From positions 1-64,000 of the forward strand of contig NZ_LMEA01000001.1 in NCBI RefSeq assembly GCF_001425235.1: DNA of 64,000 bases. The letters are read 5' to 3'. The notes beneath the pieces are model-generated. The model was not told the DNA's origin. It was given only the letters and a program-made list of their open reading frames with translations, and did not search any database. Shown one piece after another: positions 5,292 through 57,987 of the stretch (positions are counted from its first letter, which is position 1; the number at the start of each line of letters is the position of its first letter). Position numbers and translations under genes: made by a program. The DNA comes from Devosia sp. Root413D1 (lineage in GTDB: Bacteria; Pseudomonadota; Alphaproteobacteria; Rhizobiales; Devosiaceae).

Positions 5292-5299
5292 GTCCGGCC

Positions 5300-6043: not shown

Positions 6044-6306
6044 GGCGCCAAGCATCAGCCATGCCTCGCAAAACCGCAATCGGCGGTCGAACGCACCGTT
6101 CACCCAACCGGCCACTTTACAGCCGCCATGCCCGAGCGTACCTATCCGCCCATGACCGCTTGCATCCTAATTATTGGCAAAACCTGCCTCATCCCCTCCG
6201 GGGACCGGGACGCGACGGCTGTTTGACCCTCGTTTGCTCACCGGCCCCGCCATCAGGCGCGGTAACCCGGTGATCTGATGGCAGGGGCCAGAACTGGACC
6301 CGCCAA

Positions 6307-7296
6307 ATGTCTCCCGAGACTGCGTCACCTCCATCCACCGCCCATCGCGGCTTCCGGCAATTCGCCTGGGCCGGCATCGTGCTGGCGCTCGCCGGCGCGG
6401 CGTTCTTCGCCACCAAAGGCATCGTCATCAAGCTGGCTTTGCTCGAGGGCATCGACTCGGTGACGACACTCACCTGGCGAATGATCGTCGCCGTGCCGAT
6501 CTTTTTGACTGTCGGCATCCTCGGTTACCGCAAGAAGCTGGCCCAGCAACCCCCAGGCGCCCCGCCGGTGCTCACCTGGCCGGTGCTGGCGCAGACCCTC
6601 GGCGTCGGCGTCATCGGCTATTACGTCGCGAGCTACCTCGATTTCTCGGCGCTCGAATACATTACCGCGCAGTTCGACCGGCTGATCCTCCTCACCTATC
6701 CGTTCTTCGTCGTGCTGTTCGGCGCGATCTTCTTCAAGCGCAAAATCACCCTGCCGATGGTCGTGGCGCTGCTCGTCTCCTACCTCGGCATCGGCGTCAT
6801 CTTCTGGCATGACCTCAGGATCGAGGGCGATAACGTGCTGCTCGGCGCCGCCTTGGTGTTCGGCTCGGCCATCGCCTACGCGGCGTACCAGATCATGGCC
6901 AAGCCATTGATCGACAAACTCGGCCCGCAGCTCTTCACCTCCATCGCCATGAGCGGCGCCGGCCCGGCGGTGATCGCGCATTTCCTCTTCACCCATCCGG
7001 TCACCGACCTTGCGGTCACCGGCAACGGGTTCCTGTTGATGCTGGCCATCGGCACGGTGTCGACCGTGCTGCCGGCCTATTGCATCTCGGGCGCCATCGC
7101 ACTGATCGGCCCCGAGCGCACCGCCATCATCGGCAACGTCTCGCCGGTGGTCACCGTCGGCCTCGCCATCTCCGTCCTCGGCGAAGCCTTCACGCCCTAC
7201 CACGCGATCGGTACGGCCCTGGTGCTGGGCGGGGTGTTCCTGTTCACCCGCAAGGAAAAGCCGAAGCTGAAGGTGCTGAAGGAAAGTACCGCTTGA
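6307..7296 (+). CDS. DMT-superfamily transporter (two EamA domains)
   Basis: A 329-residue inner-membrane protein with about ten hydrophobic helices arranged as two repeated EamA units, the standard drug/metabolite transporter layout. The first unit starts at about residue 20 and the second at about 170 (LLGAALVFGSAIAYAAYQIM). The second unit carries the usual GPERTAIIGNVSPVVTVGLA stretch near the end. The substrate cannot be read from sequence. It stands as a single gene. Confidence 0.9.
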   Translation: MSPETASPPSTAHRGFRQFAWAGIVLALAGAAFFATKGIVIKLALLEGIDSVTTLTWRMIVAVPIFLTVGILGYRKKLAQQPPGAPPVLTWPVLAQTLGVGVIGYYVASYLDFSALEYITAQFDRLILLTYPFFVVLFGAIFFKRKITLPMVVALLVSYLGIGVIFWHDLRIEGDNVLLGAALVFGSAIAYAAYQIMAKPLIDKLGPQLFTSIAMSGAGPAVIAHFLFTHPVTDLAVTGNGFLLMLAIGTVSTVLPAYCISGAIALIGPERTAIIGNVSPVVTVGLAISVLGEAFTPYHAIGTALVLGGVFLFTRKEKPKLKVLKESTA

Positions 7297-7399
7297 TTCC
7301 GTTGAGGATTCTCGACAAGCCTGCTCCTGGTTCAAATAGTTCTACAACAGTCGCCTGCGAGAAATTGCGGGGCGACTGACGAGGGTTCCGGGGGCGGGC

Positions 7400-9610
7400 G
7401 TGGGTTTGTGGACTAGGACCACCGACGACAGTACGGCAGCACGTGCCGCGCTGCTTGCGCTTTCCGGCACCATTGCAGGCCTCTGCTCCCCGCTGCCGGC
7501 GCAAGCGCAATACGTTGTGGCGCCGGGCCCGTACCCGGAGCTGACCGTCAGCAGCGGCAATCAGTCCGTCACCCAGAGCGGCGCAGTCTCGGTAGCCGGA
7601 CAAACGACCATCGTCGCGGGCACCGGCACCATCACCTTGACCAACAGCGGCAACGACTTCGGCGGCCAGATCGTCGCCGCGGGTTCAGCTATCGCGCTCA
7701 CCGACGCCAACGCCCTGCTCGTGGGCGTGCTGAACGGTGACTTAGGCGTCGTATCGCTCAGCGCCGGCGGGATGATCAGCCAGATCGGCATCGTCGAGGC
7801 GGGGACACTCAACCTCAACGGCGGCGATGACGTCATCCTGAGTAACACCGCCAACCGCATCGGCTTGCTGAACAGCGCGACCATCACCGGCGACTTCACC
7901 CTGGCCAACAGCCTGGCCCTGAACATCTACTCGCTCACTGCGGACAACGTGTCGCTCCACGTCGCCAGCGGCGTCACCGTGGGCGCCACTCATTCGATCA
8001 CCGCCGACCAGGTCACCATGAACACTGGCCTCTTGACCGTGAACGGCCAGGTCGACGGCGCCGTGAACATCCTCGACGGCGCATCGCTCGGAGGTACCGG
8101 CACGGTCGGCAACACCACGATCGCCAGTGGCGGCACGCTGGCGCCCGGCAACTCCATCGGCACGCTTCATGTCGACGGAGACCTGGTGTTCGCGGCTGGC
8201 TCGTCCTTTGACGTCGAGGTCGATCCCTTGAGCAGCGCAAGCGACCTTGTCGCCGTTACCGGCAACGTCACCATCAATGGCGGGACCGTCGCCCATATCG
8301 GTGGGGCTGGCGACTTCCTCCGCACGACCCGCATCATCCTGACCACTGGAGGCGAGCTCACCGGAGCGTTTGCCGAGGTCGAGTCGATCTATGCCTTTCT
8401 GACGCCCCGCCTCATCTATGACTACGACGCCGACATGGTGGCACTCGAACTGGGCCGCAACGATATCGACTTCGTATCGTCGGCAGCGACCCGCAACCAG
8501 ACCGCCACCGCCCAGGCCATCGACAGCATCGGCATCTTTGCCGCCAACCCGCTCTACGACGCCATCGCTCTGCTGCCCGACGATGACGCCCTGATCCAGG
8601 CGAGCTTCGACGCCCTATCGGGTGAGATCGGCGCGACCCTGCAGGGAGCGCTTATCGAAGACAGCCGCTTCATCCGTGACGCCATGGGCCAGCGCCTTCG
8701 CACCAGCCCGACTGGCCCTTCTGACGACTACGTGCCGCTGATGGGCTACGCGCCCAGCACCGAGCCCATGCTGCCCTCTCCGGAGCCGGCCGGCCCGACG
8801 GTCTGGGCCTATGGCTTCTCCTCCTCCGGTACGGCCGGCGGAGATGGCAACGCCGCCGCACGCGATCATGATATCGGCGGCCTGCTGGTCGGCACCGACG
8901 GCCTGCTCGGCGACTGGCGGGTCGGCCTCCTCGCCGGCTACAGCCGCTCCGGCTTCGAAGTAGAGGATCGCTCCTCCTCCGGCTCGAGCGACAGCTACCA
9001 CCTCGGCCTCTACGGCGGCACCGCCTGGGGCGCTCTCGCGCTGCGCACCGGGCTCGCCTATACCCTGGCGGACCTCTCCACCCAGCGTCTTGTCGCCATC
9101 CCCTGGCTCGATGACAGCCTCAGCGCCGCCTACGGCGCCCAGACCCTCCAGGCCTTCGGCGAGCTCGCCTACGCGATCGAGACTGACGGCGCCCGGCTCG
9201 AGCCCTTCGTCAACCTGGCGCATGTGAACCTCACCACCGACGGCTACACCGAAGAGGGCGGCCCCGCCGCGTTGACGGTTGCGGGCAGCTCCACCGGCAT
9301 CACCTTCGCCACCCTCGGGGCGCGGGCAGAACTCGCATTCGAACTGGGAAGCATCGACGCAACCCTGCTCGGCATGCTCGGCTGGCGCCACGCCTTCGGC
9401 GATCTCACCCCTACTGTAACTCAGGCTTTCGCGGCGGGTGACGCCTTCACCATCGCCGGCGCACCGATCGCCAGCGACAGCGTCGTGATCGAAGCCGGCC
9501 TCGATCTCGCCCTCAACGACACGGCCACCGTGGCCCTGTCCTATCTCGGCCAAATCTCGAGCGAAACCGAGAACCACGGCGCCAAGGCAACCCTGGCCGT
9601 CAGCTTCTAG
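7400..9610 (+). CDS. Type V secretion autotransporter
   Basis: Autotransporters carry a passenger exported through their own C-terminal outer-membrane barrel. The 736-residue protein uses a GTG start, with a signal peptide ending around AQAQ (residue 37). A beta-rich passenger of Gly/Asn/Thr repeats follows. A passenger-associated repeat sits at about 228-262 (GGTGTVG, TLAPGNSIGTL). The barrel runs from about residue 465 to the terminal phenylalanine (AVSF), as BAM recognition requires. The passenger is short and shows no protease or lipase motif, so an adhesin-like role is the default guess. Two hairpins follow the stop. Confidence 0.9.
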   Translation: MGLWTRTTDDSTAARAALLALSGTIAGLCSPLPAQAQYVVAPGPYPELTVSSGNQSVTQSGAVSVAGQTTIVAGTGTITLTNSGNDFGGQIVAAGSAIALTDANALLVGVLNGDLGVVSLSAGGMISQIGIVEAGTLNLNGGDDVILSNTANRIGLLNSATITGDFTLANSLALNIYSLTADNVSLHVASGVTVGATHSITADQVTMNTGLLTVNGQVDGAVNILDGASLGGTGTVGNTTIASGGTLAPGNSIGTLHVDGDLVFAAGSSFDVEVDPLSSASDLVAVTGNVTINGGTVAHIGGAGDFLRTTRIILTTGGELTGAFAEVESIYAFLTPRLIYDYDADMVALELGRNDIDFVSSAATRNQTATAQAIDSIGIFAANPLYDAIALLPDDDALIQASFDALSGEIGATLQGALIEDSRFIRDAMGQRLRTSPTGPSDDYVPLMGYAPSTEPMLPSPEPAGPTVWAYGFSSSGTAGGDGNAAARDHDIGGLLVGTDGLLGDWRVGLLAGYSRSGFEVEDRSSSGSSDSYHLGLYGGTAWGALALRTGLAYTLADLSTQRLVAIPWLDDSLSAAYGAQTLQAFGELAYAIETDGARLEPFVNLAHVNLTTDGYTEEGGPAALTVAGSSTGITFATLGARAELAFELGSIDATLLGMLGWRHAFGDLTPTVTQAFAAGDAFTIAGAPIASDSVVIEAGLDLALNDTATVALSYLGQISSETENHGAKATLAVSF

Positions 9611-40443: not shown

Positions 40444-40519
40444 GGGGCTGTAGCTCAGTTGGGAGAGCGCATCGTTCGCAATGATGAGGCCAGCGGTTCG
40501 ATTCCGCTCAGCTCCACCA
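40444..40519 (+). tRNA. tRNA-Ala (anticodon CGC)
   Basis: A 76-nt cloverleaf with an encoded CCA end. The acceptor stem GGGGCTG pairs with CAGCTCC. The D-arm is GCTCAGTTGGGAGAGC and the anticodon loop is TTCGCAA (anticodon CGC). The T-arm is AGCGG-TTCGATT-CCGCT. Its last 17 nt are part of the 24-bp attachment repeat of the island that follows. Confidence 0.93.
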
Positions 40520-40526
40520 CTTCGAT
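40503..40526. repeat. attL core of the genomic island (tRNA-Ala 3' end)
   Basis: 24-bp direct repeat (starts TCCGCTCAGCTCCACCA), identical to 55655-55678. It begins in the tRNA T-arm and extends 7 bp past the CCA. The integrase gene starts 84 bp further in. Confidence 0.92.
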
Positions 40527-40593
40527 CTAGAGCGTTGATCCCGCTCAAACCCTCTGAAATCCAAACGTTTTCTGTCCTCACTGCTCCACAACC

Positions 40594-40605
40594 CTGCTAC
40601 ACATT
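40594..40605 (+). promoter_or_regulatory. Candidate integrase arm-type site, left
   Basis: CTGCTACACATT, followed by GGGT. It recurs in the same orientation at 55583-55594, just inside the right att core. Both copies lie 55-70 bp from the core on the island side, as arm-binding sites of tyrosine integrases do. Confidence 0.5.
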
Positions 40606-40609
40606 GGGT

Positions 40610-42517
40610 ATGGACGACATGGGCAAGTATCCCGGCCTCGTGCTTCGCGGATCGGTTTTCTACTATCGCAGACGCGTCCCAGAGGACGTGCGGAACGGCA
40701 TTGCCGCGAACCGAGAGCGATGGAACCGGCTATCAGTGAACCCCGGTGCACCGCTCCACGACTGGCGCGAGCTACTTCAAGAAGACGGAACGGTACGAGG
40801 GGTGATCATTCGGTCACTCAAGACCGGCGAGCGACCCGAAGCGGAGCGGCGCTATCTCGCCACCGCCAGCAGCATCGCCAACAAGCTAGCCGAGATTGTC
40901 GCGCGTATGTCAGCGGAGGAGCCCATCGCAACCGACGACCACCTGCGGGAAATCGCCAGCAGATACTACTCCGACAGGACAAGGGGCGCTGAAGCCGAGT
41001 TTGGGGCCCTCACAGCCGACCAGTCGCAAATCGTTGAGAACTGGCGCGAAGACCTTGCGGCCATCGCGAGCGGTAGCGACGTTTTTAGGAGGGCCCTTAT
41101 GTCACGCGCAGCAGGGCTCCTCTCAGCGAGCGGGTTCGTTGCTGACGCGCACACCTCTAGCACTCTCGGTGGCTACCTCATGAAGGCCGAGCGTACGTTT
41201 CTAGAGCAGCAAATCTGGGAGTGGGAGACCGAGCAAAACATCTGGGACCGAGATCAAGAACCGGCGGAGCGACCTAAGGTGGCCGCCCTGCTCGCCCAAT
41301 CCGAAGGTTCACGACCTGACGTCGCGGCCGCCCCAGAACGAGTGCCTCGGCCCCCTCGGCGACTTGTCTCCATGCGGGATGTCTACAAGCGCTACCTTGT
41401 TCGGAAGGCCACTGCAGATCGGCATCACAAGACGCTGGGCAAATACGACTACGTATGGCGCCTCATCGAGGACTGTTTCAACGTGGACAAACCGATGTCC
41501 GAAATTTCGCGCGACGACACAAGTCGTTTCGAGGATATCTTGCGACGCCTGCCGCCCAACTGGCGGAAAAACAAGCGGCTTAAGGGCCTTCGTGCGCCGG
41601 AGGTTGCCGTCGAAGCTTCTCGCCTTGGCATGAAGCCGATTGGTCCGAACACCCTGTATGGCTACCTCTCTAACCTGTCGGCGTTCTTTGCATGGGCCGA
41701 AGCCGAGGACTTTGTAGAGAAGAACCTCGCACACGGGCTGGCTGAAAAACCCACGGGCAAGACGGCCCCGAGCCGGGTGAAGTTTGAAGACGACGACCTC
41801 TCAATCCTCTTCGGCGCAAACTACCGGACTGAGGCGCGCAAATATGGTGGCCTGAAGCCGCCTCCGCCCCCGGATGAGTTACCCGATGATCCTCGATACT
41901 GGGCTCCCATAGTGTCTCTGTTCACAGGCATGCGACTTGCCGAGATATGTCAGCTTACTCGCAAAGAGGTTCGGGAGTTTGACGGCGTCCCTTGCATCGT
42001 GACCATGTGGGATGTCAGCGACGAAACCGACTATGACGATCGGGAGGAAGACAAAGTCGTTCGGTCGATGAAATCTGCGGCGGCACAGCGGGCAATTCCG
42101 CTGGTAGATGAACTCCTTCGTCTGGGTTTTTGGGAGTTTGCTAAGCGCTTGCCAGATGGCAGCAGCGCCCGGCTGTTTCCAGCGCTCAAGCCAAATAAGC
42201 ACGGTTACATTGCAGCGCCCATCTCGCGCTGGTTCAACCGGTACAAGGCGACTGCTGGTGTCACAGACACGCGCAAAGTCTTCCATAGCCTGCGGCACAC
42301 CTTCCGGAGCGCAATGGCCCGCGCTGAGGTCAGTCATGACATAGCTGTGCGTGTCGGCGGATGGTCATCACGCGGTTTGTCTGACCACTACGGCAGATCG
42401 GACAACTTGGTGAAATTGGCGCACCAGCAACTGAACCGTATACGGTATGAGAGGCTCGATCTGTCGCACCTTTATCCCCCAGCAATTCCACAAATCGAAC
42501 TGTTAAGAGAGATTTAG
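40610..42517 (+). CDS. Tyrosine-type site-specific integrase of the island
   Basis: 635 residues from ATG 40610. An ATG at 40619 (MGKYPGLVLRGSVFYYRRRV) is also possible. The open frame upstream is just the tRNA gene. The N-terminal arm-binding domain opens GLVLRGSVFYYRRRVP, typical of large proteobacterial integrases. The catalytic residues are Arg442 (FTGMRLAEI), His559 and Arg562 (HSLRHTF), a Trp in GGWSSRG, and Tyr594 (SDHYGRSD). Its place beside the tRNA end identifies it as the enzyme that inserted the island. Confidence 0.95.
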   Translation: MDDMGKYPGLVLRGSVFYYRRRVPEDVRNGIAANRERWNRLSVNPGAPLHDWRELLQEDGTVRGVIIRSLKTGERPEAERRYLATASSIANKLAEIVARMSAEEPIATDDHLREIASRYYSDRTRGAEAEFGALTADQSQIVENWREDLAAIASGSDVFRRALMSRAAGLLSASGFVADAHTSSTLGGYLMKAERTFLEQQIWEWETEQNIWDRDQEPAERPKVAALLAQSEGSRPDVAAAPERVPRPPRRLVSMRDVYKRYLVRKATADRHHKTLGKYDYVWRLIEDCFNVDKPMSEISRDDTSRFEDILRRLPPNWRKNKRLKGLRAPEVAVEASRLGMKPIGPNTLYGYLSNLSAFFAWAEAEDFVEKNLAHGLAEKPTGKTAPSRVKFEDDDLSILFGANYRTEARKYGGLKPPPPPDELPDDPRYWAPIVSLFTGMRLAEICQLTRKEVREFDGVPCIVTMWDVSDETDYDDREEDKVVRSMKSAAAQRAIPLVDELLRLGFWEFAKRLPDGSSARLFPALKPNKHGYIAAPISRWFNRYKATAGVTDTRKVFHSLRHTFRSAMARAEVSHDIAVRVGGWSSRGLSDHYGRSDNLVKLAHQQLNRIRYERLDLSHLYPPAIPQIELLREI

Positions 42518-44210: not shown

Positions 44211-45785
44211 TTGCGCATCTTCGTTCAACCGCCAGCCCGGCGTCCCTCGCGGGTTCAGGCCGATGACGCCCTGATACTAGTTGGGAACACTTGGAACGAC
44301 TACGGATACCGCACCTTGTATGCGGCGTTCCGACAGCTTGGCCAGTCATTTCACGAGATCGGAAACGTCAAAGTTCTGTCGAGAACTCAGAAAGTCGGCG
44401 AGGTTCCGCTGCCACAAGAGGAACTGCCGGGTGGCATCCTGCCGGACGAATACATCTCGCTGGGCAACAGCATCGATTATTACGAGCGCCTCATCGAGAT
44501 GGGCGCCGAGTACGCCGTTGAAGTTCTTGCAGCGCTGAAGGACGCGACGCGGGATGAGAGCCTGAGAACCTCGTTCTCCGACGTTGAGGCCTATGGCGTT
44601 TCCCTAAATCGCGATCGATCTGATGCCGAGACGTTTTATAGAGAGGCGCGAAACACCATTGAGAGTGGCGGCCCCCTACCTCAGGAGGCTGGTTTCGAGT
44701 TTGCCTTTACGCCGGGGCCGGACGGAGAACCGATCCGGTTTGAGTTTGGCTCTGGCCACATAGGAGGGTTTGGCGATCCGGGTCCCTCTCGTCGCGTGGC
44801 CGTGCTTGTCGGCGCCAACGGCGTTGGAAAGACCCGCCTCCTAGCTCAGATCGCCCGCGTCGCGTACGCGGCTCCAAGGGACCGGGACGAACTTCGAGAT
44901 GAAGGGGTCATTGACGGTAGCCCAGCTTTCCCGAGCATCGTTGCCGTTTCTTACAGTTCTTTTGATGACTTCGATCCCCCGAGGCTAACCGGGGATGACC
45001 CCTTGCAGGTGGCTAGGCAATTACGTGAGGGTACAGGACGCTACACCTATTGCGGAATACGCGATGTAGCTGCGAAATTTGAGAACCCTGACGAACCGAC
45101 CCGGCTGCTCACCCCAGACCAACTGGCAACGCTGTTTGCAGAACGCATTGAAACCGTCAGGTCGCTAAATCGATGGCCGATGCTCACGAGAGCGCTCTTG
45201 CCTGTATTGTCGGAGCCTTCGTTCCCATTGGGCTTCGAACGCGGGAGCGTCCCTGCAAGATTTGTCCTTGACCATTTTCTGGCGGACGACCCACGAAAGG
45301 TCTTCGGACTGCTGTCTAGCGGCCACAAGATCGCTATGCATCTTCTGGCAAGTCTAGCCGCTACGCTGAACCGGCGTGGTCTAGCGTTGATTGATGAACC
45401 GGAAACACACCTGCACCCGCCGCTGCTAGCGGCCCTAATGACTGGATTGCGCAACATCCTCGATACCCTTCAGTCTTACGCGATTGTTGCCACGCATTCG
45501 CCCGTCGTTGCGCAAGAAACGCTAAGCAGTCAGGTCTTGATCATCGGGATTGGTGGAGCCTCTAAGGCAACGCGACGCCCGGACATAGAGACTTTCGGCG
45601 AGAATACGGGAACGCTTACCAGAGAAATCTTCGGCCTTCACCCGGACGCAGCCGACTACACCAAGGTGCTTGACCAGATGGTAGCGACCTATGGGAGCAT
45701 CGAAGCCTTGGAGGCCCATCTCGGCGCACCGCTGTCAGGACAGGCTCTAGCTTACGTTTCTTCTGCTATCGCCCGGCGGTCCTAA
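44211..45785 (+). CDS. AAA/ABC-type ATPase, Septu PtuA-like, with a long N-terminal extension
   Basis: 524 residues from a TTG start at 44211, with no better start nearby. The ATPase core has Walker A GANGVGKT at 201-208, a degenerate signature (LLSSGHK, 368-373), Walker B LALIDEPETH at 391-400 and the H-loop ATHSP at 427-431. This is the SMC/OLD-like layout seen in PtuA and related anti-phage ATPases. About 195 residues precede Walker A (ALILVGNTWNDYGYRTLYAA onward), where PtuA normally has almost nothing. That region is unrecognised and may be a sensor or partner domain. The stop overlaps the start of an HNH gene (TAATG). Confidence 0.8.
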   Translation: MRIFVQPPARRPSRVQADDALILVGNTWNDYGYRTLYAAFRQLGQSFHEIGNVKVLSRTQKVGEVPLPQEELPGGILPDEYISLGNSIDYYERLIEMGAEYAVEVLAALKDATRDESLRTSFSDVEAYGVSLNRDRSDAETFYREARNTIESGGPLPQEAGFEFAFTPGPDGEPIRFEFGSGHIGGFGDPGPSRRVAVLVGANGVGKTRLLAQIARVAYAAPRDRDELRDEGVIDGSPAFPSIVAVSYSSFDDFDPPRLTGDDPLQVARQLREGTGRYTYCGIRDVAAKFENPDEPTRLLTPDQLATLFAERIETVRSLNRWPMLTRALLPVLSEPSFPLGFERGSVPARFVLDHFLADDPRKVFGLLSSGHKIAMHLLASLAATLNRRGLALIDEPETHLHPPLLAALMTGLRNILDTLQSYAIVATHSPVVAQETLSSQVLIIGIGGASKATRRPDIETFGENTGTLTREIFGLHPDAADYTKVLDQMVATYGSIEALEAHLGAPLSGQALAYVSSAIARRS

Positions 45786-46618
45786 TGCGCACTCTCGATT
45801 TTCAGGCGGCAGGCGTTTCGCCGCCAATGGAAACACTGGATAAAGCGTTAGGTCCGGGCAACGAACTCAAGGGACGGCCACGAACACTTATTGAGCGTCT
45901 CTTCGAGCGGTATCTCAAGTGCCTTGGAAGACCGGACTTGGTTCGAAAGTCCCGCTACTTTTCTGGAGCGCCCGGAAAGCCGATCGAGACCGCCTACCGC
46001 CAGACATACAAAGGTAAACGAATTTACGGGGTTCGACAGAGCTTGCAGAAGCTCGTCGGCAATCGCTGCCCTAGTTGCGGAGGCTCAAGACCTACCGAGC
46101 TAGATCATCATCTTGCTAAGACCGACTATCCCGAGTTCTCAGTATTGCCGATCAATCTGGTACCGTACTGCGGCGGGTGCAACGGGAAGAAATCAGATCG
46201 GCAAGTTGCCGATCCAGAGAAGGCCTTCATACACCCGTATCTCGACATAGTCCCGGACGTCCCATACCTGACTGTAGCCATTCAACAGAACGCTTCGGTG
46301 ACCGCCCAGATCGCCTTTGATGCGAATGCAGCGCTGGGCAGCGACCTACTTAAGAAGCGAATGGCCCATCAGTTCGAAACCGTCGATGTGCCAACCCAGC
46401 TTGCGTCTGAGATCGTTGAGTTCCTCGAAGAGCACGCTGACAACATTGCGGGCGCAGGTTTGCCAGATGGCGCCCCCGTGTCGAGCTATCTTGCTTCGAC
46501 CGCTGACAGAGTGGCAGCACGACTTGGTCATTCCTTTTGGAAGGTTGCCATCCTGAGGGCGTTGGCGGCCGACGCAGTCTTTTGTGCTGGCGGCTACAAG
46601 GCGCTGCTCAAACCTTAG
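45785..46618 (+). CDS. HNH endonuclease, Septu PtuB-like
   Basis: 277 residues. The HNH/zinc module is complete: Cys95-Cys98 (CPSC), Asp107-His108-His109 (ELDHHLAK), Asn124 (LPINLVPYC), and Cys129-Cys132 (CGGCNGKK). Such nucleases pair with PtuA-type ATPases and cut nucleic acid when the complex is activated by phage. Translation is coupled to the ATPase (1-nt overlap). The ~130 residues after the HNH core are unassigned and helical. Confidence 0.82.
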   Translation: MRTLDFQAAGVSPPMETLDKALGPGNELKGRPRTLIERLFERYLKCLGRPDLVRKSRYFSGAPGKPIETAYRQTYKGKRIYGVRQSLQKLVGNRCPSCGGSRPTELDHHLAKTDYPEFSVLPINLVPYCGGCNGKKSDRQVADPEKAFIHPYLDIVPDVPYLTVAIQQNASVTAQIAFDANAALGSDLLKKRMAHQFETVDVPTQLASEIVEFLEEHADNIAGAGLPDGAPVSSYLASTADRVAARLGHSFWKVAILRALAADAVFCAGGYKALLKP

Positions 46619-46769: not shown

Positions 46770-47342
46770 ATGGCACTTGTGGGGTATGCACGAACTAGTA
46801 CGGCGGAACAGGTCGCTGGGCTGGAGGCCCAAATTCGGGACCTGCGCGCTGCAGGAGTTCAGGAAAATGAGCTTTTCGTGGAGCAGGTGTCTTCCGTCGG
46901 TCAACGCGGCAAACTGTCAGACGCAGTGCGCTTCCTACGGAGAGGTGACACCTTTGTGGTCACCAAGCTCGACAGGTTGGCTCGCTCAGTCGTCAACCTT
47001 CAGGAAATTTTGGACGATCTAGCCGAGAAGGAAGTTGCACTTCGTATCTTAGATTTCGGAGGCGGGGTTGCCGACACGGGTTCGGCTCAAGGCAAACTGA
47101 TGCTGAACATCTTCGCATCAATAGCCCAGTTTGAGCGGGAGATAATGCTGGAACGTCAGCGCGAGGGCATCGCCAAAGCCAAGGCTGACAAGAAGTACAA
47201 GGGCCGCGCCCCCACGGCGAAGCGGAAGTCGGACGATGTGCTCAGGATGTCCAAGGAGGGCATCGGCGCGTCCGAGATCGCTAAGCGTTGCGGCATTGGC
47301 CGAGCGTCCGTCTACCGAATACTAAAGGAAGGGGCCGCCTAG
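46770..47342 (+). CDS. Serine recombinase (resolvase/invertase family)
   Basis: 190 residues with the catalytic Ser10 (GYARTSTAEQ), the conserved RLARSVVNLQEIL and the long E helix (LMLNIFASIAQFEREIMLERQREGI). A C-terminal helix-turn-helix follows (IGASEIAKRCGIGRASVYRIL). Size and layout fit Tn3-type resolvases or DNA invertases. No transposase lies nearby, so resolution or inversion within the island is likely its job. Confidence 0.93.
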   Translation: MALVGYARTSTAEQVAGLEAQIRDLRAAGVQENELFVEQVSSVGQRGKLSDAVRFLRRGDTFVVTKLDRLARSVVNLQEILDDLAEKEVALRILDFGGGVADTGSAQGKLMLNIFASIAQFEREIMLERQREGIAKAKADKKYKGRAPTAKRKSDDVLRMSKEGIGASEIAKRCGIGRASVYRILKEGAA

Positions 47343-48740: not shown

Positions 48741-49319
48741 ATGTCTATGAGAGAGACATTCTGGATGCTGGAAAAACTGGGGCGGGTGCGGTTGTCCGAG
48801 CACTTCTACCTCCGCCAGTTCCTCTACTCTGAGATTGGCGCAGCGTTTGGCATACCGAATGTGCCGGACCACCCAGACCTAGCGATTGAGACAGGCACAC
48901 GCCTCTGTCAGGACGTGCTGGAGCCACTTCAACGACTGGTCGGCCCCATCGTGATCCGATCGGGATTTCGATCGGCTCGATTGAACGCTTTCGGTGCCAA
49001 GCACCGGCTCAAGTGTGCAGCGAATGTCAAAAACTACGCCCGCCACATCTGGGACCATCCTGATGCCGATGGCCACAAGGGTGCCGCTGCCTGCATCGTT
49101 GCACCCCGGTTCAACGACCTCCATTCCGGCATCAGCGGTAAGACCGCACTCGCCGAAGTCATAGACGCTCGCATCGACTACCACGCACTGGTGTTCTTCA
49201 CCCACAACGCGTTTACGATCGGGTGGCACGAGCGACCAGTTCGAAGCATCCGTCCCAGTCATCTCGATCCGCGCCAGACGTCAGCGCAGGAAAGCGTAGA
49301 TGACGCGTCACCTCCCTAG
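48741..49319 (+). CDS. Peptidase M15-like (hedgehog-fold) protein
   Basis: 192 residues. The opening RLSEHFYLRQFLYSEIG, followed by LEPLQRLVGPIVIRSGFRSARLNAFG, matches the N-terminal region of M15-type D-Ala-D-Ala peptidase-like proteins. KNYARHIWDHPDADGHKGAAA may replace the metal-site HxxGxAxD segment (here H-x-WD-x-PDADGHKG), and HALVFFTHNAFTIGWHE could supply the C-terminal histidine. The motif is not canonical, so enzymatic activity is uncertain. The 132-bp gap upstream is bounded by a 10-bp inverted repeat (TGCAAAATCA at 48611, TGATTTTGCA at 48726). Confidence 0.6.
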   Translation: MSMRETFWMLEKLGRVRLSEHFYLRQFLYSEIGAAFGIPNVPDHPDLAIETGTRLCQDVLEPLQRLVGPIVIRSGFRSARLNAFGAKHRLKCAANVKNYARHIWDHPDADGHKGAAACIVAPRFNDLHSGISGKTALAEVIDARIDYHALVFFTHNAFTIGWHERPVRSIRPSHLDPRQTSAQESVDDASPP

Positions 49320-49648
49320 TCCGCCCGAACCACCACACGGGCCAATTCGAGACACAGGGCGAGTTGCCGGTCGGACATCTGACGAGCCAGCGTGAGCAGT
49401 TCGGCAAGGGCCTTCTCCTGCTTTGGCGTTGCACCCTGCCCTTCGAAATCGAAGAAGTCCCGGAGCGGTACGCCCAGCACCCTTGCCAGCCCCTCCAGTG
49501 TCTCAAGATTGGGAAGGCTTATGCCGCGCTCAATCGCAGAGATTGTGTCGATACTGCGCTCAAGCTTCGCGGCAAGTTCACTCTGGGAGAGACCCTGCCC
49601 CCTCCGCGCCGCCCTAACCCTAAGTCCAACCCGCTCACGAATGTCCAT
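49316..49648 (-). CDS. XRE-family transcriptional regulator
   Basis: 110 residues with a textbook N-terminal Cro/CI helix-turn-helix (VGLRVRAARRGQGLSQSELAAKLERSIDTISAIERGISLPNLETLEGLARVLGV). A short C-terminal helical tail follows. Convergent with the M15-like gene (4-bp overlap at the stops). It could be the island's control regulator. Its own promoter faces the gene at 49820. Confidence 0.93.
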   Translation of the reverse strand: MDIRERVGLRVRAARRGQGLSQSELAAKLERSIDTISAIERGISLPNLETLEGLARVLGVPLRDFFDFEGQGATPKQEKALAELLTLARQMSDRQLALCLELARVVVRAD

Positions 49649-51291: not shown

Positions 51292-52962
51292 ATGGTCTAT
51301 GCCTGCTTCGGAAAGAACGCGGGGGCGAGGCGGTTGCGAGCCATTGATGTGTATTCGGGTGTCGGCGGCTGGTCTCTGGGCCTGCGCCTTGCCGGTATCG
51401 ATGTTGTCACCTCGTACGAATGGAGAGAACACGCCAACACGACCAACCGAGAGAACAACCTTCATCCCACCGCCACAGTAGATGTTAGAACCGTTGACCT
51501 AACCTCCCTTCCCGCTGGCATTGACATCGTAGTGGGGAGCCCGCCCTGCACCCAATTTTCTCTCTCGAACCGAGGAGGCCAAGGAGACATTGGTGATGGG
51601 TTGGTGGACGTTCGGCGCTTCTTCGAAATTGTCGAGGCTACGAACTGCCGATACTGGGTCATGGAAAACGTCCCTCGGCTCGCCTCAATCATTCGTCAGG
51701 AGCTAGCACCCAAGGGGCGACTGGCGCGGTTCGGCCGATTGCGCCATGACATTCGCGTCTTCGACCTAAATGAGTTTGGGCTACCGCAGAAGCGGCAACG
51801 ATGCCTAGTCGGCAACATCGACTTTGACCTACTCTCAACATACGCGGGAAGGCTGCCGGCACGAACGCTCGGCGATGTCGTTGCGGCGCTAGCTCAGGAC
51901 CCAGTAAAGGATCCCCTGTACGGCGTCTCGGTAGCGAGGGCTTCGCTGAGGGACCACGTTCAAGAAGCCCCCCTCGACGCCGAGGAAATGCGGATCAACC
52001 GGGCCGCTAAGCGGTTGCATACGATCTATAACGCGATGCCCTTTCCTGACCGGCTAGATCGCCCATCGAGAACAGTCACTGCGACGTGCACCCGCGTCTC
52101 ACGTGAGAGCATCGTCATTCAGGACGGCTCCGCTGGCACACATAGGCGCCTCACGTTGCGTGAGAAGGCGTCCTTGCAAGGATTTCCCATTACCTTCCAG
52201 TTCTTCGCGGATCGCCACGCCCACAAGGCGGAGATGATCGGAAATGCGATGCCACCACCTTTCGCCTATCTGATCGGAAAGGCGATCTGCGGCGTTCCCG
52301 CCCTGTCGCTTGTTCCCGTCTCAGACCATAGTGAAAAGCTTGCCCTACCCACCGCCGCGCCGCCGCAGACGTCGCCGGAAACAAGTGGCAGGAAGTACAG
52401 CCTAGACCGACGCTTCCGGTTCGCTATTCCCTCGCTCCACTTGAAGAGCGGTGTTCGCTTTGAACTCAGGAATTACACCTTCAGGGAGCCTTGGTTTTGG
52501 GCGATGGAGTTCTACTTTGGGAGTTCCAAGCACATACACAGCATTGCAATGTCCTCCGACGTGCTCGGGCCCCTCCTGCCAGCCGGAACCGACGGACTGA
52601 CGCTGGCACTCGCTACAATTCGCAGCGACATTTCAGCGATGGACATCGATCGCATGCAATCGGTGTGGAGCCGTAAGGGGCCCGGAGGCACTTGGCCGTT
52701 CGCCCTTCTGGACTACCTCTCGGATGCGGCCGAGACCCTGCACGACTTAACCAGCGCTACACCGGATGGACTGTCTCTCAAGGCGATTGAAGACGTTCTC
52801 TGCCGACAGTTTGGGAGCACGTTTGGAAAACTCGTAGGGATCGAGAAACTTCGGCGAAATGCCCAGAGAGTGCACGCCGGATTGATACTGGGTTCAACGG
52901 TCAATGACCTGCTGGTCCCCTCGATCGCACCCATGGAGCAGAACCAAGCTCAACGAGCATAG
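51292..52962 (+). CDS. DNA cytosine-5 methyltransferase with C-terminal extension
   Basis: 556 residues. C5-methylase motifs in order: motif I DVYSGVGGWSLGLRLAG (19-35), motif IV with the catalytic Cys86 (VGSPPCTQFS), motif VI ENVPRL (125-130), motif VIII QKRQR (166-170), then RPSRTVTATCTR and IGNAMPPPFAYLIGKAI (IX-X). About 190 residues follow motif X (RFAIPSLHLKSGVRFELRNY onward), an extension not found in ordinary Dcm-type enzymes. The gene converges on the HNH-helicase operon with only 6 bp between the stops, so this is probably the modification arm of that system. Confidence 0.93.
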   Translation: MVYACFGKNAGARRLRAIDVYSGVGGWSLGLRLAGIDVVTSYEWREHANTTNRENNLHPTATVDVRTVDLTSLPAGIDIVVGSPPCTQFSLSNRGGQGDIGDGLVDVRRFFEIVEATNCRYWVMENVPRLASIIRQELAPKGRLARFGRLRHDIRVFDLNEFGLPQKRQRCLVGNIDFDLLSTYAGRLPARTLGDVVAALAQDPVKDPLYGVSVARASLRDHVQEAPLDAEEMRINRAAKRLHTIYNAMPFPDRLDRPSRTVTATCTRVSRESIVIQDGSAGTHRRLTLREKASLQGFPITFQFFADRHAHKAEMIGNAMPPPFAYLIGKAICGVPALSLVPVSDHSEKLALPTAAPPQTSPETSGRKYSLDRRFRFAIPSLHLKSGVRFELRNYTFREPWFWAMEFYFGSSKHIHSIAMSSDVLGPLLPAGTDGLTLALATIRSDISAMDIDRMQSVWSRKGPGGTWPFALLDYLSDAAETLHDLTSATPDGLSLKAIEDVLCRQFGSTFGKLVGIEKLRRNAQRVHAGLILGSTVNDLLVPSIAPMEQNQAQRA

Positions 52963-52968
52963 ACGCGC

Positions 52969-54819
52969 CTAGCTCTCCCCAGTGAAAATCTTCTTCACTT
53001 TGCCCCAAGTTTCCTCGGGAAGCTGCCGCATGATCTTCAGCATCTTGGCATCGCCGCTAGCGAGGATTTGCCTCCGAACGGTGCCTGCCATTGCTTCCCC
53101 CTCTTGAACGTCGTCTTCGTCAATGTCCATGCCGCGAGAGATCGCGCCAAGCCGGAGCGCTTCGTCCAGCGTCAACGTGAACTCGGTCGCAAAACTGTGT
53201 CCACAGTGCTGACACTGCTTGGCACTGAGTTGATTGAGACCACCGCAGTCCGGGCAGGGCTTGAACTGCTGCGGCCGCTTCGGGAACTCGTGCCCACACG
53301 CCTCGCACGTGGTGGCGGCAAGCGGAGCCTCGGTTTCGCAGATCGGACACTTTTTGGTCCTCGCGGGCCCTTCGTCCTTCAGCGCCTTGGGGGACATCTC
53401 GTCTTCGACACGACGAGCATATTCCTCCAGTGTGTTGAACGATGGCATCACAACGTACGCACGGGTGTCATCGTCGGGGCCAGCCGACCGCACGACACGG
53501 CCGATGCCTTGTCGAAAGGCGAGTTCGGTCAAAGCATACGGGAGGTAAATCAGAACCCGCAGACGTGCAATGTCCACCCCTTCGCTGATCATAGCGACGG
53601 ATACTAGCCATCGCTTTTCAGTGTGACGAAACCCATCGATCTTGTTCTCCACGTTCGGCGTATTGTGGTGAACGAGCACGGGCCTTTCACCCTCGATCCG
53701 TTCGATCAAATCGACCATGTACTCTGCGACGTCGATGGACGGAGCAATCACCAGCCCACCTGCCGTAGGCATGCGATAGCGCAAGTCGCTCAACTTCTCG
53801 CTGGCCCATTGAACCATCGTGCCCTGATAACCATCGACCCTTGGCAGCGTCGTCCCGACGTCGTACTGCGGCGTGCACGCCAGCCGATAAAAGTTCAGAG
53901 CCCGCTGTAGGCCGGGTATTCGCTTAAGGGTGGGCGTTAGCTCGGTTTCGCTCTGGCCAGAAACCAAAACCTTCTCGCCATCTTCAAGATCGACTGTGAA
54001 CTTGCCCTCGTGCCTATGGAAGGTCGCTGGGCGGCAATAGTCCAGATCAACAGCCTCACCGTAGGTTAGGGTGTAGGTTCCACCCTCGGGAAAGTCGATC
54101 GCCCCAGCGTCATCGTAGGCAAGCCACAGCGACTTCTGGCGATCAGACCTGATGGGTGTCCCGGTGAGAATGAGGACATACTTGGCCTCCGAAAAGGCAC
54201 CCGCCGCTCCCACACCCCAAGCTGCCTCTACGGCTGCATGATGATGCTCGTCACAGATGACGAGAACCCGAGAGTTGCTGCAGAGGGCTTGGAAGGCATC
54301 CTGAAGGCTCTGCACCGCCGCCCACGTGGCACACACGTCAAGATCGACCTGCTCGTCTGCGCCCGTTACTCGGGCCATGAACCGGCCTGTTACTTGGTGA
54401 AAATCCTTAGCCCACTGGCGGACCACCTCCACTCGGGGCGCGATGACAACCACACGATCGATTAGCCCCATGTCAATGAGGCTCTTGGCAATCACGCAAG
54501 CCGCAATCGTCTTGCCCGCCCCCGGCGCGGCGTTGATCAGGAAGTGCCGGTCTGTAGCATCCTCGACCAACCACTTTAGCGCTTGCTGCCGAGCTTTGCT
54601 CTGCCATTCGCGTAGTTGCATTACGGCTGATCCCTTCTTGCTATTGCAGTCGGAACATAGGGCCTGCCCATTCAAAATGAGCGTCGGGCCGCCCTTCGAA
54701 AAAGGGAGTACGTGATCAGCATGAAAACTCCTGCCGATCTTCCTGCCACATATGGCGCACTTTCCCCCACCCGTCAGCCAAAGGATAAATCTCTGACGCT
54801 TAGAGAATAGCCGCCTCAC
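52969..54819 (-). CDS. HNH-SF2 helicase-zinc ribbon fusion protein
   Basis: 616 residues with three parts. The N-terminal HNH nuclease has Cys21-Cys24, Asp35-His36 (HADHVLPFSKGG), Asn50, and Cys55-Cys58 (CSDCNSKKG). An SF2 helicase follows: Walker A APGAGKT at 98-104, DEHH at 190-193, TGTPIR at 219-224, and motif VI FRQGIGRVVR. Two CxxC-x(11)-CxxC zinc ribbons come next (about 491-540), then a helical tail. It combines duplex unwinding and cutting in one chain. It is the last gene of a three-gene operon (4-bp overlap with the preceding stop) and faces a C5 methyltransferase. Confidence 0.92.
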   Translation of the reverse strand: MRRLFSKRQRFILWLTGGGKCAICGRKIGRSFHADHVLPFSKGGPTLILNGQALCSDCNSKKGSAVMQLREWQSKARQQALKWLVEDATDRHFLINAAPGAGKTIAACVIAKSLIDMGLIDRVVVIAPRVEVVRQWAKDFHQVTGRFMARVTGADEQVDLDVCATWAAVQSLQDAFQALCSNSRVLVICDEHHHAAVEAAWGVGAAGAFSEAKYVLILTGTPIRSDRQKSLWLAYDDAGAIDFPEGGTYTLTYGEAVDLDYCRPATFHRHEGKFTVDLEDGEKVLVSGQSETELTPTLKRIPGLQRALNFYRLACTPQYDVGTTLPRVDGYQGTMVQWASEKLSDLRYRMPTAGGLVIAPSIDVAEYMVDLIERIEGERPVLVHHNTPNVENKIDGFRHTEKRWLVSVAMISEGVDIARLRVLIYLPYALTELAFRQGIGRVVRSAGPDDDTRAYVVMPSFNTLEEYARRVEDEMSPKALKDEGPARTKKCPICETEAPLAATTCEACGHEFPKRPQQFKPCPDCGGLNQLSAKQCQHCGHSFATEFTLTLDEALRLGAISRGMDIDEDDVQEGEAMAGTVRRQILASGDAKMLKIMRQLPEETWGKVKKIFTGES

Positions 54820-55091
54820 CTGCTGATACGATACTCAGTCAACATGATCTCGCGGATAGGAAGGTTCGGCGGAGGCTTGAGCACCGCGTGTTTGTTAATT
54901 CGAACCATCGCCGCAGCGTAGGCGATCTTCCTCGTATCGACTACGAAGCCCTGACCTCGCAACTCATAGACAAGCTCGGGCAAATTCGACAGGCCGAAAA
55001 GGACCAACGCTTCAAGCCTTGTAAGGGGCTCCCCCGATAGCAGGTGCTCCTTTGCAGCTAGAGCGATCCCGTTTACGTCTGATACCGCCAT
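54816..55091 (-). CDS. Small winged-helix-like protein
   Basis: 91 residues. The sequence LLSGEPLTRLEALVLFGLSNLPELVYELRGQGFVVDTRKI matches the helix-turn-helix 'wing' of small proteins in which TRLEAL...LRxxGxxV forms the DNA-recognition unit. It overlaps the HNH-helicase gene by 4 bp (ATGA) and the preceding gene by 19 bp. It may give DNA specificity or control expression of the operon. Confidence 0.7.
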   Translation of the reverse strand: MAVSDVNGIALAAKEHLLSGEPLTRLEALVLFGLSNLPELVYELRGQGFVVDTRKIAYAAAMVRINKHAVLKPPPNLPIREIMLTEYRISR

Positions 55092-55408
55092 TCTGGCCCC
55101 AACAATCTTTCCACTCGCGTCCGCAGATACCTAATCTGATCCCCGCCCACGTTGTCTAGGGACCGAAGGAAACGCCCTTCATACTCCAAAATTTGCCATC
55201 CGCCGTCGCTCATGGCGCGATCTACGCTAAGCCTATCAAATGAATTGCCGTCCCGGGGATCGGCAAAATATGTCAGAGATGCTGTCTCATCCGAATAGGC
55301 GCGCACTATTTCATTGGCGAGCCTTAGGAGGTCACCTGAAGCAACGGTTCCCTTAACCGATGCGCGTAGTTCTAAGTAGACCTGCCTTACAAGTGCGGGT
55401 TTATTCAT
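55073..55408 (-). CDS. First gene of the HNH-helicase operon, unknown function
   Basis: 111 residues from ATG 55408 (MNKPALVRQVYLELRASVKG). The frame is open to 55456 with an ATG there. It is helical in the first half (GDLLRLANEIVRAYSDETAS), and the rest (RAMSDGGWQILEYEGRFLRS, GPEWRYQ) is without a known motif. It overlaps the winged-helix-like gene by 19 bp, so the three genes form a tight operon. Confidence 0.65.
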   Translation of the reverse strand: MNKPALVRQVYLELRASVKGTVASGDLLRLANEIVRAYSDETASLTYFADPRDGNSFDRLSVDRAMSDGGWQILEYEGRFLRSLDNVGGDQIRYLRTRVERLLGPEWRYQT

Positions 55409-55654: not shown

Positions 55655-55678
55655 TCCGCTCAGCTCCACCACTTCGAT
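55655..55678. repeat. attR core of the genomic island
   Basis: 24-bp direct repeat of the tRNA-Ala 3' end (same 24 bases as 40503-40526), marking the right end of the island. The flanking bases then differ (T instead of C at the next position). Confidence 0.92.
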
Positions 55679-56007
55679 TTCCGTCAAGGACTTAGCTAGC
55701 GGTTTTGCTTGGTGGGACAACCAAGTAAGACATTGGCTTTGTTCAATCCGAACTACCTTCAGCGTTCTAGCCACCGCGTTTCCACTTCCGCTGGACGCTG
55801 CCCGCCTCGGTTACGGCTCTCAAACCAGCTCGATTCGACTGTCGCTGAACAATCGCTGTCCCACCGCCCATCGGTGATCCAGCAGTTCCGTGCGTTTCAG
55901 TCAATTGTGGATGCCGCGACAATAGAGCAAACGAACGGCGACGCTTTCCATCGCCTTGACTTTGAAAGGAGCAATCGTATCGTTGCCCCCCGGACGAGGG
56001 GCAAATA
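55679..56007. other. Region after attR without a convincing gene
   Basis: A Ser/Arg-rich 99-codon frame (55709-56008) ends in TAATG overlapping the next start. Its composition looks non-coding and I do not call it. A GAGGGG ribosome-binding sequence precedes the 56008 start. Base composition is still island-like rather than core-like. Confidence 0.5.
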
Positions 56008-56790
56008 ATGACGCAACCGCAGCATCAACGGCACAGCGGCTGGCGCAACTGGCTATGCACGGCTGCGGTCGCCCTGACTGTCATCGCAAGCTCCGCGGTG
56101 TTTGTCTTCGGTCAGTATGCATACGTGTCGAATGGCGTTCTGTTCTGGACGACGATCGCCTCTATTGTAGCCTTGTCGTTCTGGTCGAGCTGCATGGAAG
56201 CCGCCTATTCGACGATCAATAGCGATCAGAACCCCGTCGCTGAGAAAGCCACAGCAGAACTCGACGCGCTTGGCCAGACCTGGGTACAGACCACTGCGGA
56301 AGCGGGAAATGCCGCCGCCATGACCAAGAAGACCGTCAAGGTTCTGGCACAACTCCAGGCGCGCCGGAACGTCCTGGTGGGGCGACATCGAATGGCCAGC
56401 GGAATCGATCGCGCGGAGATCGTTGGTGCCTTTGCATCCCTTAGCGTCCTGCTCAACCTATCCTTGGGCATTGTTTTGCCGATTGCGTTAGCGAGCCAAA
56501 TCGCCCCTACTTTGGTGATCGACCTCACCGCCATTTATGCGTGGCTTCAAAGTTACCTCGTCCTGCCACCCGGCATTCCAATGAAGTTCGATCTGACGAG
56601 CCAAAAATCGTTGGTCTTCGTCGCGACGACCGTTCCCATCCTCCTCGCCGGAAAGATCATCCCAAAGACAATCGGGTTGAACTCAGCCGGGTTTTGGATC
56701 GGAAAATTCTCGGGACTCGCAAGGATCGTCCAAGTCGCTCTTGGCTGGATCAGCGTCGGCACCAGTTGGGTGTTCCAACCTAAAAGTTAG
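56008..56790 (+). CDS. Integral membrane protein with DUF21/CNNM-like transmembrane domain
   Basis: 260 residues with four to five hydrophobic segments. The stretches FWSSCMEAAYSTINSD and PILLAGKIIPKTIGLNSAGF correspond to the FFSxxETAL and FGEIxPKTxA motifs of the DUF21 domain of CorC/HlyC/CNNM proteins. No CBS domains follow, so it would be a free-standing DUF21-like protein. DUF21 proteins are linked to Mg/Co efflux. The role here, in an accessory stretch, is unknown. It converges on the next gene with a 4-bp overlap. Confidence 0.65.
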   Translation: MTQPQHQRHSGWRNWLCTAAVALTVIASSAVFVFGQYAYVSNGVLFWTTIASIVALSFWSSCMEAAYSTINSDQNPVAEKATAELDALGQTWVQTTAEAGNAAAMTKKTVKVLAQLQARRNVLVGRHRMASGIDRAEIVGAFASLSVLLNLSLGIVLPIALASQIAPTLVIDLTAIYAWLQSYLVLPPGIPMKFDLTSQKSLVFVATTVPILLAGKIIPKTIGLNSAGFWIGKFSGLARIVQVALGWISVGTSWVFQPKS

Positions 56791-57173
56791 CCTTGAAAGA
56801 AAAAGAGATCCCGGAACACGTCATCTGGGCCCTTCCGACGCATGACAGAGGCTCCCTGAGCTTCCACCGTTATCAACGCATCGGACGTCAGTTTGAACGC
56901 CTTGTCGTCGAGCGTGAAATTGAAAACCTTCACCTCGCGTCCCGGATTGCCGTGGGATGGAATCGTGCGTAGGTAAACGGAGCCGCCAACACCGTTGCCG
57001 GACACAGTGTCTTCGTTGATAACAGCTTGGGAAATATCACGATAATCGATCGTAATATTCTCGATCTGAATGGACCTTCCATTCGGATGCACTTTGCCTT
57101 CCGGTACCAAGTGGGTTACGGGCCGGGAGAATGCGCTGGTGAGATCACGCTTCCTGCCAAATGAAAACTTCAT
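56787..57173 (-). CDS. Accessory hypothetical protein
   Basis: 128 residues from ATG 57173 (MKFSFGRKRDLTSAFSRPVT). An ATG at 57221 is in frame. Beta-rich, with alternating segments (IQIENITIDYRDISQAVI, KVFNFTLDDKAFKLTSDALITVEA). It has no signal peptide and no known motif. Convergent with the DUF21-like gene. Confidence 0.6.
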   Translation of the reverse strand: MKFSFGRKRDLTSAFSRPVTHLVPEGKVHPNGRSIQIENITIDYRDISQAVINEDTVSGNGVGGSVYLRTIPSHGNPGREVKVFNFTLDDKAFKLTSDALITVEAQGASVMRRKGPDDVFRDLFFFQG

Positions 57174-57298
57174 GGCCCGCTCGGTCCTTCGATCTATTCT
57201 TTCATAAGATAACACCAGCACATTGACTCTTCAAGGCGATTGCTGAAGTGTGACGGTGGCGTCACAATGCCCCACATGATCCAACAAGGACCACCAAG

Positions 57299-57790
57299 AT
57301 GGGCTTAGGGAGCCCGGTGCAACCGCTCTATACCCGCAAGGCACGCCTTATTGGTGGCGAAGCGCTCCTGGCGAGTGCGGGCGCGACTCTGGACGAAATC
57401 GGGACCTTTGCTGAGTGCCACGTGAACACTGTCAGCGACGCGCTTCGAGGACGAGCGAAACTCTATGTCAAAGCGCACCAGATATTTACGGCGCTGAACA
57501 TGAGGCTGTTTAATTCGGCGAGACGATCGGCTCATGTCGAATATCAAACTGCGGGAACCTTCCAGACCGACCCTACACTGGAGGACTGCCTCGTATTCTA
57601 CGGACTCGAGCGCCACATGAAGGCATCCCGATTGAGCGTGCCCACACTCGCAAGTGAGGTTGGAGTGCAGCCGGTGCTCGTTGAGAATGCGAGACGACAA
57701 TGGCCTGTCGACAAGGACGTCGTCTCGGCAATCCGTGACGCGTTGGAGAAGCGCGGCAGTGAGATCGATCCGCTCCATATAGTCAATTAA
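57299..57790 (+). CDS. Helix-turn-helix-like accessory protein
   Basis: 163 residues. The first half contains LASAGATLDEIGTFAECHVNTVSDALRGRAKLY, which reads like a helix-turn-helix. A second one (LSVPTLASEVGVQPVLVENARR) follows near residue 110. No family is named. The ATG is preceded by AAGGACCACCAAG. Possibly a regulator left over from the older accessory segment. Confidence 0.55.
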   Translation: MGLGSPVQPLYTRKARLIGGEALLASAGATLDEIGTFAECHVNTVSDALRGRAKLYVKAHQIFTALNMRLFNSARRSAHVEYQTAGTFQTDPTLEDCLVFYGLERHMKASRLSVPTLASEVGVQPVLVENARRQWPVDKDVVSAIRDALEKRGSEIDPLHIVN

Positions 57791-57961
57791 GCCTTGATGA
57801 CCGCGAAAACTGGCCTTGGAGGCTAGGCCCATTGGTGGCTGCGGCGTCTGAGACTCTCTTCGGGCGGGTCAGACGCTAGATGCGCTCTCAGTGGGCGACC
57901 TCCATGGCCTCGGGAACAAGCGCGGGGTTCTCTCCGGTTGAACAACTGAACATGTCTACCG

Positions 57962-57976
57962 GATTCCGGTCAGCTC
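57962..57976. repeat. Degenerate third copy of the tRNA-Ala end
   Basis: GATTCCGGTCAGCTC matches tRNA bases 40500-40514 (GATTCCGCTCAGCTC) at 14 of 15 positions, and ACC follows as in the tRNA after one missing C. It lies exactly where island-type sequence ends and the LacI promoter begins. Confidence 0.5.
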
Positions 57977-57987
57977 ACCGCACCCCG

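Follow-up and report, generated by a model that had tools for sequence, protein, structure and literature searches.

A C5 cytosine DNA methylase gene and an operon that converges on it from the opposite strand, tail to tail with a gap of 6 bp, raise the question of whether they form one restriction system or two modules that have become neighbours. Both lie in the window (i.e. the whole stretch of 64,000 nucleotides of Devosia sp. Root413D1 that was analysed). The methylase gene, on the plus strand, occupies positions 51292-52962 and encodes 556 aa. Facing it on the minus strand are three genes, hereafter the cassette: orf111 (55073-55408), which is the first gene, a gene for a winged-helix protein of 91 aa (wHTH; 54816-55091) and, as the last gene of the operon, a GTG-initiated gene (52969-54819) for a protein of 616 aa that combines an HNH nuclease, a RadD-like SF2 helicase and two zinc ribbons. 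The minus-strand genes overlap by 19 bp (wHTH and orf111) and 4 bp (helicase and wHTH), and the whole cassette is under 2.5 kb. A preliminary description, which took the four genes for a candidate restriction or defence module, gave all of their coordinates, the gap and both overlaps correctly.

The domains of the HNH-helicase are recognised by Pfam as HNH (residues 21-64, 7.6e-11), ResIII (67-224, 3.3e-19) and Helicase_C (356-445, 3.2e-6), with the UPF0547 zinc ribbon matched at two stretches. Key residues of the HNH domain and of the helicase motifs are invariant in an alignment of five sequences, which come from the window, a second genome described below (G321), two Streptomyces plasmids and the Saccharomonospora phage PIS 136. 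The best PHROG is phrog_16 (DNA helicase, 2e-39) and the best solved relative is the RadD repair helicase (6jde, 5.4e-6), which shares with the window protein the SF2 core and the region after it, and which is not known to carry an HNH domain. The match to the RadD model NF053632 (3.8e-13) reaches 48.6 bits, below the cut-off of 720. A weak match was also obtained with 7clg, whose listed name is 'Putative helicase' and which is presumably SauUSI. The PADLOC hits for the HNH-helicase cover only portions of generic helicase or HNH models (the best being PbeA, 4.7e-14), and no PADLOC model is matched by wHTH or orf111. The former matches HTH_39 (PF14090, 2.1e-6). The latter is 111 aa long from an ATG and 127 aa long from an upstream TTG; it has no PHROG match, and its 127-aa form has no Pfam match.

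The methylase matches PF00145 over residues 16-332 (3e-35), and the motifs DVYSGVGG, PPC, ENV, QKRQR and GNAMP are all in place. It carries a C-terminal extension of about 210-220 aa beyond the Pfam DNA_methylase domain, and alignments identify in this part of the gene (52336-52962, plus strand) a conserved domain common to the methylase's family. The preliminary description had suggested structure prediction for this region and for the two small proteins. The C-terminal domain, modelled from six sequences, gave good confidence (pLDDT 79.2, pTM 0.78) and a fold with no match in PDB or BFVD at E<=0.001, whereas the orf111 model was poor (pLDDT 57.5) and too weak for a fold search. The C-terminal domain was found in one of 385 genomes of the class (the window's own) and in two of 136 genomes of the family. 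In PADLOC, the best model for the methylase is MTase_II (2.8e-44), and DrmMII scores 1.8e-25. The methylase is thus one of a rare family distinguished by a C-terminal domain of its own, and it probably marks short sites. Such marks may protect against the cassette or against some other enzyme, or may serve the element as anti-restriction.

All four genes belong to an integrative island of 15.2 kb, located in a tRNA-Ala(CGC) gene, and form its distal cargo. The attachment gene (40444-40519, plus strand, ARAGORN) contributes its 3' end to a 24-bp attL-type repeat that also includes flanking sequence (40503-40526, plus strand), and an exact copy of this repeat (attR-type, 55655-55678, plus strand) marks the island end. 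Just inside the tRNA end lies the tyrosine integrase of the island (40481-42517, plus strand; PF00589, 2.7e-10; phrog_1, 1.3e-27). One sibling genome (G086) has an uninterrupted version of the attL-type repeat. Three siblings from the genus (G086, G088 and G091) align with the window from the upstream flank up to and including the tRNA, and the alignment resumes at about 57943-57983; they share nothing of the island except the short repeat, and they carry other sequence between the aligned flanks (~0.6 kb, ~1.1 kb and ~8 kb, respectively). The G+C content of the island is 57.7%, versus 63.0% for the whole window.

The island is defence-like, with a PtuA/PtuB-like pair (Septu / PDC-M01; an ATPase and an HNH protein) among its cargo at 44211-46618 on the plus strand (PADLOC: PDC-M01A, 6.3e-96; PtuA, 1.2e-72; PDC-M01B, 1.2e-38). 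The two genes of this pair overlap by 1 bp. No phage structural gene was recognised among the larger ORFs of the island, which were inspected by eye, with family searches for some of them. Other cargo includes a serine invertase/resolvase (46770-47342), a relative of which is also close to the methylase in genome G070, and an XRE-type HTH gene (49316-49648) that resembles restriction control proteins (PADLOC Control_protein, 9.5e-8) and is oriented divergently to the genes that lead up to the methylase. In L035, one of the loci considered below, the methylase is preceded by a comparable HTH gene (33%, E 3e-6). Past attR, a stretch of 2.3 kb (55679-57982) has no counterpart in the three siblings; it contains orf56008 and orf56787 as well as a weak HTH protein, and is perhaps a second small insertion.

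A second copy of the cassette was detected in G321, a genome from another order, with orf111, wHTH and helicase in the same order and with short overlaps (41, 70 and 71% identity, respectively, the helicase being matched over its full length, residues 1-614). Between the two copies, pN and pS are 0.199 and 0.847 for the helicase, 0.211 and 0.841 for wHTH, and 0.423 and 0.768 for orf111, where constraint is weaker than in the other two genes. As synonymous sites are saturated while the proteins have been kept, the cassette frames are under selection, orf111 least of all. The three opposing genes thus are a real unit, as previously proposed. In G321 they lie within a 3.36-kb insert at a tRNA-Ala(CGC), a place where sibling G589 has 78 bp and where different sequence, about 6.1 and 7.1 kb long respectively, is present in siblings G590 and G591. 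Among 20 window genes, only the three cassette genes have a match in the 20 kb around this copy, and no replication gene or integrase was recognised in the insert (searched with the window integrase by tblastn, and by eye for the rest).

The window methylase has no match in G321 at E<=1e-5 (60 contigs, 99% complete). Similarly, PF00145 has no match there at E<=0.001; as a control, the same model has matches in 10 of 14 named genomes, including G589 and the window's genome (G000). As the search of G321 gave no C5 methylase to go with its cassette, the methylase is not obligatory for the cassette, and the two look like neighbouring modules rather than one fixed system. We therefore rejected an obligate four-gene restriction system. 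Only one other close copy of the cassette was found, so the case for independence draws on one genome, in 60 contigs.

In the genome samples searched, which overlap one another, a full-length helicase relative was found in only one genome besides the window's own. At E<=1e-10, the helicase matches three of the 385 genomes of the class, namely the window's own, G321 and G484 (an HNH-only match). One of 76 genomes is matched in the order of G321 (G321 itself, E<=1e-12) and one of 397 in that of the window (its own genome, E<=1e-20). At the phylum level, 13 of 398 genomes match at E<=1e-12, 12 of them from residue 50 or later, i.e. without the HNH domain. Within the family, 118 of 136 genomes match the helicase query at E<=0.001; we did not retain these as relatives, since among the matches listed those outside the window are short HNH or partial helicase stretches.

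What, then, accompanies the methylase elsewhere? We gathered 15 distinct loci of its family, i.e. the window, L035, L036, L037-L041, L169-L175 and G070 (L179), with L172 and L173 counted once because they are identical over their shared stretch. The flanks of the 14 non-window loci were surveyed by tblastn over about 2.8-10 kb a side. DrmA and DrmB are beside the methylase at five of the 15 loci (L035, L037, L038, L039 and L041), Vsr at six (L037-L041 and L175), an SNF2 operon with NOV_C proteins at three (L040, L175 and G070) and the HNH cassette at one, the window. None of the partners sought was found at six loci (L036, L169, L170, L171, L172/L173 and L174), and the HNH-helicase of the window is absent from the flanks of all 14 other loci. 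The methylase family thus keeps company with changing helicase-nuclease operons, several of them tail to tail. For example, the methylase and the SNF2 operon meet tail to tail with a 4-bp overlap in L175 and with 0 bp between them in G070. In L040, Vsr lies between the two and the join to the operon comes about 2 bp after it. Homology links the operons of L040 and L175, both in SNF2 (29%, E 4e-48) and in a protein of ~450 aa (24%, E 2e-11). We call the ~450-aa protein, which has no Pfam match, ParB-like because it matches genes annotated as such in L181 and L182.

Related SNF2 operons were also examined on four plasmids (L180-L183) of 70 matching records; an annotated C5 methylase is present in two of the four stretches examined and Vsr in two, and these C5 methylases are not close to the window's. 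In L037 (8001-17505), as well as in L039, L041 and L038, methylase, Vsr, DrmA, DrmB, a NERD/UvrD helicase and a sigma factor form a conserved cluster. This is a DISARM-like arrangement with a sigma factor of its own, which scores as MzaA in PADLOC. In L040, from a Sphingomonas bin, a short Argonaute and an REase-type partner (PADLOC names; 4590-7444) adjoin the methylase-Vsr pair. Finally, L169-L174 are viral contigs of 22-151 kb in which the methylase, with its C-terminal domain, lacks the partners sought; these methylases are possibly anti-restriction proteins.

These surveys bear on the suggestion that all four genes recur together as one restriction system. The three-gene cassette does recur, the methylase does not recur with it and none of the 14 other methylase loci has the helicase, which comes close to the finding named in the preliminary description as one that would refute it. 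In favour of the earlier interpretation are the reality of the three-gene unit, its location in a defence-like island and the helicase-nuclease operons often found beside relatives of the methylase, which give the earlier idea some context.

The HNH-helicase also has distant relatives in phages, plasmids and viral contigs. A query built from the five-sequence alignment retrieved 67 viral-contig loci, 56 of which match from residue 20 or before (50 of these 56 reaching residue 400 or beyond), while scans of viral contigs with a single-protein or two-sequence query gave no match. Six phage records match the helicase, one of them over both HNH and core, as do 73 plasmid records; of the 30 listed among these 73, three are Streptomyces plasmids with matches spanning residues 2 to 472-475, and in the remaining 27 the match begins at residue 51 or later. 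Compared with the window protein, the phrog_16-type HNH-helicases of viral contigs, Streptomyces plasmids and phage PIS 136 have the same HNH and SF2 chain, with 31-34% identity over residues 2 to 472-475, but zinc-ribbon cysteines are missing in the three that were aligned, the downstream partner differs, and neither wHTH nor orf111 is present. Within flanks of up to 6 kb (less at contig ends), one weak methylase match was found in the 67 viral loci, and wHTH, orf111 and Vsr are absent from all of them (phmmer on ORFs plus tblastn, the ORF picking having missed the helicase itself in six of the 67 loci). More generally, no relatives of wHTH were found in phages, plasmids or viral contigs, and none of orf111 in plasmids or viral contigs.

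To survey partners, the 67 viral and three annotated loci were reduced to 69 helicase ORFs that lie on the match strand and encode at least 350 aa; 35 of these ORFs share one HNH sequence signature. An ORF lies directly downstream of 63 of them and in 48 of these 63 cases it resembles one partner of ~200 aa. This partner (e.g. L045:7851-8423) has no PHROG match (four tested) or Pfam match (two tested), and the L045 version is unmatched among 20 window genes. In L050, the HNH-helicase gene adjoins a replication initiator and DnaB; in L087, a related helicase without HNH match adjoins a replication initiator.

How do these arrangements compare with described systems? In CglI and NgoAVII, a C5 methylase, a nuclease and an SF2 ATPase form a restriction system (PMC4267653), and the same three kinds of function are encoded together in the window, and in the window only. 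In these systems, which comprise three genes, nuclease (PLD, B3) and ATPase (Z1) are separate proteins; in contrast, the window has HNH and motor in one chain, its operon faces the methylase, and the cassette also occurs where no C5 methylase was found. None of the PLD, B3 and Z1 domains was detected in the four window proteins (Pfam, E<=0.1), and a constant linkage of methylase to nuclease and ATPase was not observed, given G321 and the 14 other methylase loci.

In four DISARM-like loci (L037, L038, L039 and L041), the methylase belongs to the same family as that of the window and shows about 50% identity over almost its entire length; a fifth (L035) has such a methylase broken in two frames. 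DrmA, DrmB and a NERD-UvrD-type helicase are present at all five loci, a sigma factor at four (the L035 sequence stops before this point) and Vsr at four, and none of these is beside the window methylase. A DISARM assignment was rejected, as L037 DrmA and DrmB have no tblastn match within the window; Vsr and SNF2/NOV_C are likewise unmatched there. The SNF2 operon with NOV_C/DUF3883 and ParB-like proteins, which in L175 and G070 is tail to tail with a methylase from this family and in L040 follows Vsr, keeps motor and NOV_C protein in separate chains, unlike the single HNH-RadD-like chain of the window, and no match to wHTH or orf111 was found at these loci. Single-chain nuclease-motors are familiar from type I HsdR, type III Res and SauUSI, so the preliminary description's view of separate subunits as the usual state does not strongly set the window apart. 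A table in PMC4267653 gives 'helicase-endonuclease' for HsdR and Res. In the part consulted, a paper on YprA and ARMADA (PMC12458937) treats DISARM relatives, including Vsr-type nucleases and NERD, and neither the HNH cassette nor this family of C5 methylases is described. Our search of open-licence PubMed Central literature found no description of an HNH-helicase cassette with a C5 methylase.

The explanation we favour, with about an even chance of being right, is that the island ends with two separate modules, arranged tail to tail as its final cargo, and that neither needs the other here. The cassette would be an autonomous, mobile unit of three genes in which, from its domains, the SF2 motor may travel on DNA with ATP, the HNH domain may nick or cut DNA, most likely incoming or replicating foreign DNA, and wHTH may act as a DNA-binding or control subunit, with wHTH and orf111 controlling or loading the motor. 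It would function without the neighbouring methylase and may have a role in defence. The second module would be the methylase with its family-specific C-terminal domain, whose relatives look like the modification arm of different helicase-nuclease operons. Several observations run counter to this reading: only one other close copy of the cassette was found; the tail-to-tail join recurs with another operon (L175 and G070), such that the arrangement itself may be selected; PADLOC points to no defence system for the cassette proteins beyond the partial matches of the helicase; and remote relatives of the helicase are encoded in replication regions of phages, which fits a role outside defence.

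A rival reading is that the methylase guards host sites and the cassette restricts unmethylated DNA, having replaced the family's usual effector (DrmA/B or SNF2/NOV_C). A working methylase-cassette pair in this island is possible, and relatives of the methylase do abut another helicase-nuclease operon (directly in L175 and G070, via Vsr in L040) or neighbour DrmA/B at five loci. No obvious other methylase partner is nearby, since Vsr, DrmA, DrmB and SNF2/NOV_C are unmatched in the window, and DrmA has no match in G000 or in G321 (in a search lacking a genome known to match); CglI and NgoAVII (PMC4267653) offer a precedent. However, G321 keeps an intact, selected cassette with no C5 methylase found, and the combination of methylase and cassette was seen once, in the window; we hold such a pairing to be less likely than two independent modules. 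Less probable still is that the HNH-helicase assists the recombination or replication of mobile elements, is kept for island upkeep and has no part in defence. Its best PHROG and best solved relative, the 67 viral-contig loci and the replication neighbours in L050 and L087 agree with such a phage-type DNA metabolism, but the window lacks the ~200-aa partner usual in viral and plasmid forms (48 of 63), no relatives of wHTH or orf111 were found among those forms, and the G321 insert has no recognised replication gene or integrase. A prophage replication remnant was likewise not preferred as first choice, with the viral partner missing and no phage structural gene recognised among the larger island ORFs.

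Beyond the two-module reading of this locus, we tentatively consider that the methylase family may be a plug-in modification arm swapped among at least three unrelated effectors (DrmA/DrmB, SNF2/NOV_C and the HNH-RadD-like cassette), frequently in a tail-to-tail arrangement, with its C-terminal domain serving in docking or licensing and the HNH cassette being an undescribed effector able to act alone. The cassette is a compact candidate effector, with motor and nuclease in one chain, and its presence in a genome that yielded no C5 methylase raises the question of how it spares its host. If the methylase is an exchangeable arm, this would explain how effectors can be swapped in helicase-based defence while self-marking is kept, and the role of its C-terminal domain would become directly testable.
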